From an uncultured Muribaculaceae bacterium (GTDB lineage: Bacteria > Bacteroidota > Bacteroidia > Bacteroidales > Muribaculaceae): 37,119 nt of DNA. The notes below the pieces were generated by a model. The model was not told the origin of the DNA, did not search any database, and saw only the letters and a program-made list of their open reading frames with translations. Each line of letters opens with the position of its first letter. Position 1 is the first letter of the stretch. Below, in pieces: positions 15,664 to 23,560 of this stretch. A program made the position numbers and the translations under genes. Where the stretch lies: contig CAKUQQ010000018.1 of the NCBI GenBank assembly GCA_934675575.1, positions 1 through 37,119 on the forward strand. The letters are read 5' to 3'.

Positions 15664-15727
15664 TTAGCCGATTAGTATATACACTTCACCTCAAAAAGCT
15701 CTGCAAAGTTACACACTAATCGGCTAA
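15664..15727. repeat. 13-base perfect inverted repeat flanking the str promoter
   Basis: The arms TTAGCCGATTAGT (15664-15676) and ACTAATCGGCTAA (15715-15727) are perfect complements separated by 38 bases. The upstream arm fills the promoter spacer, and the downstream arm lies about 20-35 bases after the predicted transcription start. Only one arm is transcribed, so the symmetry acts at the DNA level, as for a protein-binding operator pair. Confidence 0.8.
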
Positions 15728-15735
15728 TAACCAAA
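15704..15735 (-). promoter_or_regulatory. Promoter of the str-S10-spc operon
   Basis: The minus strand has TTTG at 15735-15732, a 20-base spacer, and TAACTTTG at 15711-15704. This fits the Bacteroidota housekeeping consensus TTTG-N19-21-TAnnTTTG exactly. Transcription should start near 15697 and read into rpsL. Confidence 0.85.
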
Positions 15736-20231: not shown

Positions 20232-20263
20232 CAAATTTAATCGAATTGTGAAAAATAAACAAA
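20232..20263 (-). promoter_or_regulatory. Promoter of the thioredoxin-fold lipoprotein gene
   Basis: TTTG at 20263-20260, 20 bases, then TAAATTTG at 20239-20232 on minus, a full consensus match. The predicted start near 20225 leaves a leader of about 30 bases to the ATG at 20195 and rules out the ATG at 20234. Confidence 0.8.
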
Positions 20264-20291
20264 TAACTGCCTGAAATTAAATTCCAGACAG
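20246..20291 (-). terminator. Candidate terminator after the first barrel gene
   Basis: On minus, a hairpin with 7-base arms CTGTCTG/CAGGCAG (20291-20285 and 20273-20267, one U-G pair) is followed by a T-rich run. The run overlaps the -33 element of the next gene's promoter, so termination and initiation signals are interleaved. Confidence 0.5.
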
Positions 20292-20331
20292 CATTCGTTG
20301 TTTGTCAACAACCCTTTTGATGTTCAGCCCA

Positions 20332-21213
20332 TTACATTCCTATGATTATGCCCATTGAAATCGACTTAAATTCCGGTCCCCAGCCCGATTTAAACAGGTT
20401 TTGTGGCTGATAGCGCACATACAGTCCGCAGCCCGACCACGACACACCGCCCATCAGGTCACATGTGAAAATGCGCTGGTGTATCTTTCTTATGTTCTCA
20501 TTGTAGTCCCTGTCACCAATGGTGTATTTGTTCTCTATTTTAGCCCAAGGCGAGAGTTTCAACAGCGGCCCGGCAAAAAATTTCACATTTCCAGCCCTCT
20601 GCTCTATCATCAATGGAAATTGAATCGACACAAATGACATTTCCGAACTATGCTTATGCGAGTTTTCAGGGAAACCAATGGCGGTCATTTTGCCGTCATC
20701 GCCTTTTGTGAATTGCATTCCATTGTGTATGCGGTAAGAGCTTGCCTCAAATCCCACGCCAAGCGAAATCGCCTGACCATGCAGCGTCGAGTATCTCACG
20801 CCAAATATGTCAAGTATGCCAAATTGCTTGGTGTGTCCCAAATTGTCCTTTATTTCTGGAGCATTGTCCGATGTGCCGTTATACCAGCCCCAGCCGAAAT
20901 ACAGTCCTCCACACACCAGGCTCCAGTGACTGCGGCGGTCGGTTCCTCCCTTTGCAAATGGGTTGTTCAAGTTCCAGTCAGTGTCCTGCTTGGTTTTCAC
21001 CACATCGTCATCACCATGTTTCACCGAATATGTGTATGCGCTCGATTTGCCCGATGCGCCAACTATGTTCACATGTGAGCCAAGCGAGTCCTCTGTTATT
21101 ATCACCTTAGCGGGGTTGTCTATCACCCTCACCGTGTCGGCATTGGCAGCACTCGCCGTTGTGGCCGACATCAAGCAACTCAATGCTGTTGCCGCAACAA
21201 ATAAATGTTTCAT
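20332..21213 (-). CDS. Exported beta-barrel-like outer membrane protein (paralogue A)
   Basis: I do not recognise a named function. The 293-residue protein has a signal peptide (MKHLFVAATALSCLMSATTA, then SAA), a linker of about 50 residues, and then aromatic-rich alternating strands such as WSLVCGGLYFGWGWYNG, typical of small outer membrane barrels. The C-terminal strands (VSWSGCGLYVRYQPQNLF, then PEFKSISMGIIIGM) match the protein at 22784-23497, so the two are paralogues. It is the last gene of the sigma-factor operon, 11 bases after the small exported protein. Confidence 0.75.
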   Translation of the reverse strand: MKHLFVAATALSCLMSATTASAANADTVRVIDNPAKVIITEDSLGSHVNIVGASGKSSAYTYSVKHGDDDVVKTKQDTDWNLNNPFAKGGTDRRSHWSLVCGGLYFGWGWYNGTSDNAPEIKDNLGHTKQFGILDIFGVRYSTLHGQAISLGVGFEASSYRIHNGMQFTKGDDGKMTAIGFPENSHKHSSEMSFVSIQFPLMIEQRAGNVKFFAGPLLKLSPWAKIENKYTIGDRDYNENIRKIHQRIFTCDLMGGVSWSGCGLYVRYQPQNLFKSGWGPEFKSISMGIIIGM

Positions 21214-21224
21214 ATAGTCGTTAT

Positions 21225-21674
21225 TTATTTTTTGATTAATTTCTTAATTCTCTTGCTCGACACATCACCCTGCATATAGATGAGTGTCACTTTGTTCACC
21301 GGATTTTTACGTGCCAAATTCTGGTTAAGGAAAAACAGAAACCGGTTGCTCCCCGACTTTGTCGGTGCAAGCACATAGTAGCCATAATACAGCTTTCCGC
21401 CTCTGTATTCCACCTCTTTGTCAATAGCTTTCACACCGTCTTTCACTGCGAGCGTCTCTATGAGCGATGCCGCTTTTTTGTCGGTAACCGACAGGCTGTG
21501 ATACACGTCCAGCCCTATTTCCTCAGCCCTGCCGTTAGTCACTATAATTTCGGTCGCGTCGGGGTTGTGCTTAAATCGTCCGTCAAACAATTGGTTCACA
21601 TTAAGCCCTGCTTGTGCCAGTGTCGGCAAGCAGCTCATCACTGCCAAAGCAAACAAAACGAATAACTTTTTCAT
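21225..21674 (-). CDS. Small exported protein of unknown function (DUF6108-like)
   Basis: The 149-residue product has a signal peptide (MKKLFVLFALAVMSCLPTLA, cut near QAG) and a mature domain starting LNVNQLFDGRFKHNPDATEI. From memory it resembles a Bacteroidales family annotated DUF6108; I could not check this. The Cys within the signal is not in a lipobox. It ends with a basic tail (SSKRIKKLIKK). It lies 17 bases after the candidate anti-sigma gene and 11 before barrel A, so it is part of the same operon. Periplasmic location is inferred; function is unknown. Confidence 0.7.
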   Translation of the reverse strand: MKKLFVLFALAVMSCLPTLAQAGLNVNQLFDGRFKHNPDATEIIVTNGRAEEIGLDVYHSLSVTDKKAASLIETLAVKDGVKAIDKEVEYRGGKLYYGYYVLAPTKSGSNRFLFFLNQNLARKNPVNKVTLIYMQGDVSSKRIKKLIKK

Positions 21675-21691
21675 TGTTCTATCTCTCGCTA

Positions 21692-22210
21692 TTAATTGTC
21701 CATTTCTATTGCTGCTCCAAGGCTGCTCAGTTGCTGTTCCAAATTGCCGCCCACAGCGTCAGAAGCGTCGTCAAGACTTTTCAAATCACTGTTCACAAGC
21801 TGCATCACAGCCGCATCGCCGCTCACCTTTTTACCGTTCACGTATGCTATGCACTCGCCTTGACCAGTCATCACCTTCTGGCCGCCGCCCACAAGCACCG
21901 CCACAGCCACAGCTATCACCACGGTCGCCGAGGCTGCAACAGCCGCAATGCGCCACACCGGCGCTGTCTTGGTTGTACGCTTGGCTCGCCTATGCCTGTC
22001 AGCGCCCACGCTAAGCATGCCCATAGTGAACCGCGCCTCATCTATCACGCCGCCATGCCACCGGCAGTGCGCCAGGCTCTGTCTGAGCGTCTGCTCATCT
22101 GCCACCGAGGTTTGCCCGTCAAAATATTTTGATATAAGCTCCTCAAGCTGTTGTTTTGTGATGTCATTTTCTTGTTTCATATCGACTTTGTTTTTTTCCA
22201 TTTCAGACAT
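21692..22210 (-). CDS. Single-pass membrane protein, candidate anti-sigma factor
   Basis: The product is 172 residues from the ATG at 22210, which overlaps the sigma stop by 8 bases; ATGs at 22201 and 22180 are alternatives. The N-terminal cytosolic half (TKQQLEELISKYFDGQTSVA) resembles the start of Bacteroidota anti-sigma/membrane regulators. A single transmembrane segment (about residues 85-107, rich in Ala and Val) follows a basic stretch. A C-terminal periplasmic part of about 65 residues contains GECIAYVNGKKVSGDAAVMQ. Overlap with the sigma gene and topology suggest it holds the sigma factor at the membrane. It lacks the FecR domain of the TonB-linked systems. Confidence 0.7.
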   Translation of the reverse strand: MSEMEKNKVDMKQENDITKQQLEELISKYFDGQTSVADEQTLRQSLAHCRWHGGVIDEARFTMGMLSVGADRHRRAKRTTKTAPVWRIAAVAASATVVIAVAVAVLVGGGQKVMTGQGECIAYVNGKKVSGDAAVMQLVNSDLKSLDDASDAVGGNLEQQLSSLGAAIEMDN

Positions 22211-22694
22211 TTCTGTTTCGATAACACTCGCGTATCTTGCATCGTGCACGACTCAGTTGCATGCGCACAGCCTCTGGCGAAGTTCCCATGTGGTGCGCAA
22301 TCTCGTCAAACTCCCACCCATTCAGTTCCCGGAGCTTCAACACCGTTTGCTGCACAGTGGTGAGTTGCCGTGCCACCATTTCCATCACCTCGTCGTATGC
22401 CTCCTCGCGTTCTTCGTGCGAAGTTTCCACCGGCACATCCACATTTTCTATCGCCATGGCAGGCAGTGCATTGCGATGGCGCACTTTATCCACACTCAAG
22501 TTGCGCACCGTCACTATGCTCGCTCCTGTCAGCGCATCACTCGAAGCCATTGCTCCGCGCCGTGTCCACAGGCGGCAAAATGCGTCTTGCACTGCATCGG
22601 CAGCGTCGTCGCGGTTGCCAACGATGTGTTGCGATATGCCCATAAGGCGCGACCGCAGATTTTCAAAAGCCGATGCAAAGCTGGTGCTGTCCAT
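22203..22694 (-). CDS. ECF-type RNA polymerase sigma factor
   Basis: The protein is 163 residues from the ATG at 22694. An in-frame ATG at 22784 overlaps the stop of the preceding gene (TAATG) and would add 30 residues unlike the family, so I prefer 22694, although coupling makes the longer form possible. Region 2 is seen at about residues 10-60 (NRDDAADAVQDAFCRLW) and region 4 at 105-160 (helix-turn-helix WEFDEIAHHMGTSPEAVRMQ). The long linker is acidic. It is encoded between a barrel protein and the candidate anti-sigma factor, so it likely directs an envelope response. Its target promoters are unknown. Confidence 0.9.
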   Translation of the reverse strand: MDSTSFASAFENLRSRLMGISQHIVGNRDDAADAVQDAFCRLWTRRGAMASSDALTGASIVTVRNLSVDKVRHRNALPAMAIENVDVPVETSHEEREEAYDEVMEMVARQLTTVQQTVLKLRELNGWEFDEIAHHMGTSPEAVRMQLSRARCKIRECYRNRNV

Positions 22695-22783
22695 TAATCT
22701 CTGAAATTTCTTGTCTTCATGATATAATACGAACAAAGCAGGGTTTTGTAACAACAGAACCCCACTTTTTCTTGTTTTTTTCA

Positions 22784-23497
22784 TTAAAGTCCCAAAATCA
22801 CGCCCATCGACAGCGTTTTAAACTCCGAACCATGCCCCTTGCTTATCACGTTGAAAGGCGAATATCTCACATAATAGCCCACGCCCCTGTATTTCACGCC
22901 GGCAAGCACATCAGCAGTCACCACATTCTGGTGCAATCCTTTCGTTCTCGACTCCACCATCTTGTCACCGTTCTGCACCCACACGTTCTCCAGGCTCGCT
23001 CTCACATTAAAGTTTGTTACCACTCCGGCAAACACATCGCAGCGCTTGAATATGCGCTGACGCACAGTCACCGGCAACTCTATGCTGAACACTTTCAGCC
23101 TCGACGACTTGAACTTGACGTCGGCTGCATCAACTTCTGTTGCCATCACATCGCCGTCGGTCACAAAGTGCGTGCCGCCCTCAAGCTTATAGTTGCGCCA
23201 GTCTATGCCAAGCCCCACCGTGAAGCGTTGGCCGTGGCCATTGTTATATTTTGCACCCACCACATTGAGCCACGAGAACTGCCATGAGCCACCCATGTTC
23301 ACATTCACGGCGTCACAGCCCACAGCATTCACAAAGCCGGCAGCCACGCCGCCACTCGTTATGTTCCAGCCCACATTGTCGGTCAGCAGAGGTGACCAGT
23401 CAACCTTTATCACATCATCACTATCTGTCCCCATGGCTGTCACATGCCCTGCGCAGCACACAACCATCAGGCATAAGCAGCGAAACAATCTATTCAT
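22784..23497 (-). CDS. Exported beta-barrel-like outer membrane protein (paralogue B)
   Basis: The 237-residue protein has a signal peptide (MNRLFRCLCLMVVCCAGHVT, cut near AMG) and alternating strands such as GQRFTVGLGIDWRNYKLEG. Its C-terminal third (VLAGVKYRGVGYYVRYSPFN, then EFKTLSMGVILGL) matches barrel A at 20332. It lacks the N-terminal linker of A. It is the first gene of the operon, and its stop overlaps an upstream in-frame ATG of the sigma gene. Function is unknown; being a sensor or target of the sigma factor is an inference from position. Confidence 0.75.
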   Translation of the reverse strand: MNRLFRCLCLMVVCCAGHVTAMGTDSDDVIKVDWSPLLTDNVGWNITSGGVAAGFVNAVGCDAVNVNMGGSWQFSWLNVVGAKYNNGHGQRFTVGLGIDWRNYKLEGGTHFVTDGDVMATEVDAADVKFKSSRLKVFSIELPVTVRQRIFKRCDVFAGVVTNFNVRASLENVWVQNGDKMVESRTKGLHQNVVTADVLAGVKYRGVGYYVRYSPFNVISKGHGSEFKTLSMGVILGL

Positions 23498-23528
23498 ATT
23501 CCCAAACTTATTTTTCTGTTTTTATAAC

Positions 23529-23560
23529 CAAAAGTAATCAAAACATTTATTGTGCGCAAA
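23529..23560 (-). promoter_or_regulatory. Promoter of the barrel-sigma-anti-sigma operon
   Basis: TTTG at 23560-23557, 20 bases, then TACTTTTG at 23536-23529 on minus, a full match to the housekeeping consensus. The start is predicted near 23522, about 25 bases before the ATG at 23497. So the operon has at least one promoter of the ordinary sigma type. Confidence 0.8.

Follow-up and report, generated by a model that had tools for sequence, protein, structure and literature searches.

An ECF sigma factor operon carrying DUF6108 and dedicated predicted barrels, a variant of the PG0214-type ECF/DUF4252 system

Described ECF systems and the class of the locus

FecI/FecR/FecA and SusCD-type ECF systems keep a sigma factor, a membrane regulator and an outer-membrane barrel together. 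The locus analyzed here lies in the window (the whole 37,119-nt stretch of DNA under analysis, probably from a Muribaculaceae bacterium) and differs from these systems in its small barrels, in the lack of any FecR match (E 0.1) across the window and 25 relatives, and in the score of its sigma factor against TIGR02985 (SusCD-type ECF), 70.6 bits compared to a cut-off of 126.4. The missing FecR match and the low TIGR02985 score rule out membership in the FecR/SusCD group and agree with the initial annotation, which had assigned the circuit to neither type. The sigma factor is of the ECF kind, as sigma-70 regions 2 and 4 scored over their Pfam cut-offs and region 3 reached only 13.4 bits (cut-off 25.3).

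A second system for comparison is EcfO/Reo of Bacteroides/Phocaeicola, which, like the window, pairs an ECF sigma factor with a cognate anti-sigma factor and is tied to envelope stress in the available part of PMC13114119. According to the same excerpt, Reo spans five compartments and the regulon includes nigD genes, whereas in the window the membrane protein is short and single-pass and the operon carries barrels.

The nearest kin are the DUF4252 operons, exemplified by PG_0214-PG_0218 of Porphyromonas gingivalis, which share with the window a sigma factor and a membrane protein, usually followed by a small exported protein. In the passages available from PMC10101095, PG_0215, located directly after the sigma gene PG_0214, is named a putative anti-sigma factor and PG_0216 is a DUF4252 protein. 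The same passages report that PG_0214-PG_0218 rose together in FLL361 compared to W83, 2.4- to 3-fold under anaerobic conditions and 5- to 11-fold under peroxide; from the title of that paper we infer that FLL361 is the PG_0686 mutant. In Prevotella bivia, a sigma gene, its neighbor and three DUF4252 genes went down together (excerpt of PMC11410844). P. gingivalis SigCH (PGN_0319) is reported to regulate cdhR and hmuYR (excerpt of PMC5607195) and is probably the PG0214 product, judging from gene numbering and strain equivalents in the portions available of PMC5607195 and PMC9862357. Sigma/anti-sigma/DUF4252 operons recur in Bacteroidales, and the literature passages on DUF4252, PG_0216 or PG0214 gave no mechanism, leaving the signal and the role of the small exported protein unexplained in those passages.

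We compared the locus with this group at the level of each gene. Against NF058625 (PG0214/GFO_1088 type sigma) the window sigma factor scored 125 bits, under the cut-off of 130, and the sigma factors of DUF6108 loci from five relatives scored 122 to 144.5, two of the five exceeding the cut-off. Among 30 fetched DUF4252 loci (19 genomes, some places represented twice), 22 had a related sigma factor and 21 a homologous membrane protein. In its N-terminal and membrane region, the single-pass protein of the window shows homology to the proteins encoded directly after sigma in DUF4252 operons (hhalign probability 98.4, E 7e-15, 84 columns), although the 16 templates were chosen by a same-family profile and the score is therefore not independent. 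It has a hydrophobic stretch at residues 88-106 with 66 residues beyond, and is richer in K/R before the stretch; no Pfam family matched it at cut-off, and zf-HC2 appeared weakly in 4 of 26 members. From its homology and the layout around the hydrophobic stretch, it is likely an anti-sigma factor.

The window differs from the DUF4252 operons in having DUF6108 in the place of DUF4252, and in its barrels, which were matched in none of the 30 DUF4252 loci (1.5 kb flanks). The DUF6108 protein scored 84.7 bits against PF19603 (cut-off 23.9) and its model had a pLDDT of 87.7. Compared with DUF4252 (PF14060), hhalign gave 96.6 with signal peptides included; the mature parts gave 38.2 (E 3e-4) in one direction and 21.0 (26 columns) in the other, compared to 0 to 1.9 for controls (other families, reversed, shuffled). 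DUF6108 occupies the usual position of DUF4252 and, from these alignments, may be its distant relative. Sequence comparison of DUF6108 and DUF4252 with solved structures gave best E values of 1.1 and 0.7, respectively, a Foldseek search with the DUF6108 model returned nothing at E 0.001 (the VIA rows were middling), a DcrB/Mog1/PsbP fold is no more than a candidate for DUF6108, and our literature search found no paper on DUF6108. The locus is a variant of the PG0214-type ECF/DUF4252 system and the kind of regulation is itself not new; DUF6108 and the dedicated barrels set the variant apart, and it is unusually compact.

Layout of the operon and its conservation in relatives

The initial annotation had described five genes in one minus-strand run, and every open reading frame (23497 to 20332) and gap was confirmed. 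In the order of transcription (23560 to 20266) the locus reads housekeeping-type promoter, barrel B, sigma, single-pass protein, DUF6108, barrel A and hairpin (Table 1). The gaps are 89 bases between barrel B and sigma (start 22694), 17 between the candidate anti-sigma gene and DUF6108, and 11 between DUF6108 and barrel A. The 22694 start of sigma is likely since homologous sigma frames are mostly about 165-171 aa, in agreement with the 163 aa it gives, and since the ECF-type promoter lies between 22784 and 22694; the same two points led us to reject a start at 22784. The closing hairpin is a consensus match only, one of 7 such matches in the window compared to 4.8 in shuffles.

Table 1. Features of the operon in the window
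Feature	Position	Strand	Remarks
Housekeeping-type promoter	23529..23560	-	before barrel B; exact pattern match
Barrel B, 237 aa	22784..23497	-	barrel A paralogue without N-terminal segment
ECF-type promoter TGTTAC-N16-CGT	22729..22753	-	between barrel B and sigma
ECF sigma factor, 163 aa	22203..22694 (start 22694)	-	Pfam Sigma70_r2 and r4_2 over cut-off
Single-pass protein, up to 172 aa	21692..22210	-	candidate anti-sigma factor; ATG options 22210, 22201, 22180
DUF6108 protein, exported, 149 aa	21225..21674	-	PF19603 match
Barrel A, 293 aa, with N-terminal segment	20332..21213	-	predicted outer-membrane barrel
Terminator-like hairpin closing the unit	20266..20292	-	12 pairs, then T-rich tail

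Gene order was compared in two sets of relatives. A DUF6108 alignment search led to 51 loci. Of 149 genomes screened across the family, 51 had DUF6108 at E 0.001 (49 of these exceeding the cut-off) and the other 98 had none; from this screen, loci were fetched at 30 places and larger regions at 20. Some places are shared with the first set (L094 with L012; L110 and L170 with L032; L087 and L159 with L034). The combined 71 DUF6108 loci are made up of the window, the 20 larger regions and 50 of the first 51 (L050 left out), with a few places doubled. Sigma, anti-sigma, DUF6108 and barrel followed one another on one strand in 67 of the 71, window included, and the expectation that genes of the run are kept together in relatives was borne out for these four. 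In three loci (L040, L041 and L048) about 0.6 kb separates DUF6108 from the barrel match. The four exceptions comprise L038 and L049, which begin at DUF6108, and L026, which ends there (contig ends), in addition to L174, which differs. The sigma gene of L174 is split into two frames and no anti-sigma gene was recognized, with DUF6108 and both barrels present.

A second barrel preceded sigma in 32 loci, and one followed the first barrel in 20 (19 full-size). The 20 wider family loci gave no match to an upstream barrel; one of them covers little DNA on that side. Separately, at L122, L123 and L124 relatives of the window have a second sigma/membrane-protein pair, and behind it come an exported protein (331-467 aa) and an outer-membrane-type protein (about 900 aa).

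Promoters of sigma and of barrel B

We searched from 250 bases before to 110 bases after the first start of each sigma frame for the core TGT[TAC][AG]CA, 14 to 16 bases, CGT. All 49 loci had the core in this region, 48 of them at one spacing, compared to 28 of 4900 shuffles. It was also found, again at one spacing, in 25 of the 28 family loci that reach sigma, some of them from the same genomes as the first set; it was absent from the other three, and the two of the 20 wider regions that lack it represent two of those places. The position of this conserved motif suggests that 22729-22753 is probably an autoregulatory promoter of sigma.

The sigma genes of DUF4252 operons mostly had another sequence. 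In a set of 25 rows, which also takes in three paralogues and repeats of one place, 4 had the core before sigma (the DUF4252 loci L134 and L144 and the paralogues L125 and L126), and in L148, L149, L152 and L155 it was found elsewhere in the locus. By eye, several of L127-L156 have TTGTAAT then CGTC before sigma, unlike the promoter of DUF6108 operons. Promoter and sigma may have changed together, as far as these sequences indicate.

To estimate the reach of the sigma factor, we considered the window site in its exact form, TGTTACAAA-N13-CGT, of which it is the sole perfect match in the window. Across 14 genomes drawn from those behind the 51 loci, the exact form gave 12 matches, one apiece in 12 genomes, compared to 2 for the reversed control. 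All 12 adjoin the sigma gene of the DUF6108 operon, their sequences being equal to the sites listed before sigma, and the two remaining genomes have one-letter variants at the same place. With one mismatch allowed, the 14 genomes gave 123 sites compared to 158 for the reversed pattern, so weaker sigma targets are beyond judging at this level, and no wider regulon stands out. In G013, one of the one-mismatch sites precedes a paralogous sigma gene at a distance of about 250 bases. Its own operon appears to be the main target of the sigma factor.

Barrel B has a different predicted promoter. The sequence at 23529-23560 fits TTTG-N20-TAnnTTTG exactly, one of 3 such sites in the window compared to 0.17 expected; we take TTTG/TAnnTTTG to be the Bacteroidota housekeeping promoter consensus. 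The other two patterns lie at 20232-20263 and 15704-15735 (minus strand), the former at the start of a DUF4369/thioredoxin-like gene. Counting the window, 32 loci have an upstream barrel; the strict housekeeping pattern precedes this barrel in 24 of them and TAnnTTTG in 29 (sites scored without a shuffle control), and the ECF core precedes it in none. In 30 of 31 relatives, barrel B and the ECF promoter are separated by a terminator-like hairpin before a T-run (-14 to -22 kcal/mol); a strict stem search had found hairpins in 5 of the 32 loci, and folding the 36 bases before each T-run then found them in 30 of 32, again without a shuffle control. No hairpin with a T-run was found between barrel B and sigma in L030 or the window, and in the window the barrel B transcript may read through into sigma. 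A 9-pair inverted repeat at 22741-22762 (listed for the plus strand) overlaps the -35 part of the window's ECF promoter, and may be a remnant of the hairpin of relatives or a product of chance.

The housekeeping sites, the missing ECF core and the hairpin before sigma point to barrel B as probably a separate transcription unit in most of these relatives, and its proposed inclusion in the sigma-run unit found no support in relatives. The initial annotation had also derived the whole set from one housekeeping-type promoter, a claim that fails since a conserved ECF-type promoter precedes sigma and the later genes. The core in 49 of 49 loci and the hairpin in relatives led us to reject a single promoter for all five genes. 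That one operon is transcribed solely from the housekeeping promoter before barrel B we regard as very improbable: the promoter is there and the window lacks the intervening hairpin, but such a reading conflicts with the conserved ECF promoter, with the hairpin in 30 of 31 relatives and with the 20 wider loci in which no upstream barrel was matched.

Barrels and the proposed envelope response

Barrels A and B align with 32% identity over 227 columns (E 4e-34, single comparison) and, by this measure, are paralogues over most of their length. They had been described as sharing their C-terminal strands; the sharing is real but was understated, and similarity restricted to the C-terminus is ruled out by the extent of the alignment. 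The barrel A model (pLDDT 78.4, N-terminal segment of low confidence) matched OmpA best in Foldseek (E 3.6e-5), and all 5 matches at E 0.001 or better were OmpA/Ail, with TM-scores of 0.26 to 0.45; barrel A is a candidate for the OmpA-like group, whose barrels are small and closed with eight strands. Compared by sequence with solved structures, barrel A had no match at E 1, and a protein search with it picked out 2 of 570 candidate proteins. A barrel profile run on 8 genomes gave 15 strong matches, all at the DUF6108 locus, and 3 weak ones elsewhere. Among downstream barrels, the N-terminal segment was found in 57 of the 70 in first place and in 16 of the 19 in second place, compared to 1 of 32 upstream barrels; the segment profile used had 23 rows, among them two upstream barrels admitted by a loose name filter.

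On the evidence of these comparisons, sigma, the putative anti-sigma factor, DUF6108 and a dedicated barrel are a conserved unit behind a predicted ECF-type promoter, and we consider it probable that the locus works as an autoregulated module for envelope responses. In the resting state, sigma would be held by the N-terminal, cytoplasmic half of the single-pass protein. A change in the outer membrane or periplasm would reach the periplasmic tail of that protein, about 60 residues long, and free sigma, which would then transcribe its own operon from 22729-22753; levels of DUF6108 and barrel A would rise, and the added anti-sigma factor would end the response. Barrel B would be supplied from its own housekeeping promoter. 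Of the envelope-sensing circuit proposed earlier, the part upheld is an ECF circuit that has barrels of its own and stays together in 67 of 71 loci; the inclusion of barrel B is not upheld, as it probably lies outside the unit in relatives. The accompanying suggestion that barrels are the target of sigma likely applies to barrel A, which sits behind the ECF promoter. A point against the autoregulated module is that SigCH, probably the PG0214 product, is reported to act on other promoters (excerpt of PMC5607195).

The part played by the barrels may be explained in more than one way. There is about an even chance that the barrels and DUF6108 are outputs only, serving protection or repair, with the anti-sigma factor sensing damage as proposed for EcfO/Reo. 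The location of barrel A behind the ECF promoter fits outputs, as does the rise of the kin cluster under peroxide in the P. gingivalis mutant (passages of PMC10101095); yet Reo spans all five compartments (excerpt of PMC13114119), and a tail as short as about 60 residues suggests that the signal from the outer membrane is probably relayed by another component. We hold it possible, but rather doubtful, that sensing falls to the barrels themselves, with barrel A through its N-terminal segment (or else DUF6108) touching the anti-sigma tail to report the state or ligand of the barrel, as in cell-surface signaling but without FecR. The dedication of the barrels to the operon in 8 genomes, and a segment kept in downstream barrels and mostly missing upstream, would favor sensing, but the segment is modeled with low confidence and an output protein would give equal linkage.

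A stricter version of the autoregulated module, which we find unlikely, is a regulon of one: sigma would have its own operon as its sole strong target, and the operon would act as a closed homeostat of the outer membrane, the barrel's N-terminal segment silencing the anti-sigma signal and a housekeeping barrel, placed upstream independently in two lineages, setting the baseline. If true, sigma would make a dedicated barrel and its periplasmic partner until the barrel silences the signal. The variant brings together, in little space, barrels of its own, a defined promoter and what is probably a regulon with one target, which makes the question of outer-membrane-to-sigma signaling testable.

We examined the origin of the upstream barrels with 54 of 121 barrels, remote rows excluded. 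One clade uniting the upstream barrels (window, L001-L036), defined as window barrel B and 11 others and named after viewing an 82-barrel tree, was rejected (p-AU 2e-5), so a second barrel seems to have arrived upstream of sigma on two occasions. In the tree, barrel B sits on a long branch and is unusual in its letter composition. A group joining it to 16 of the 19 downstream barrels in second place was not rejected (p 0.32), and barrel B may be an old second barrel that moved.
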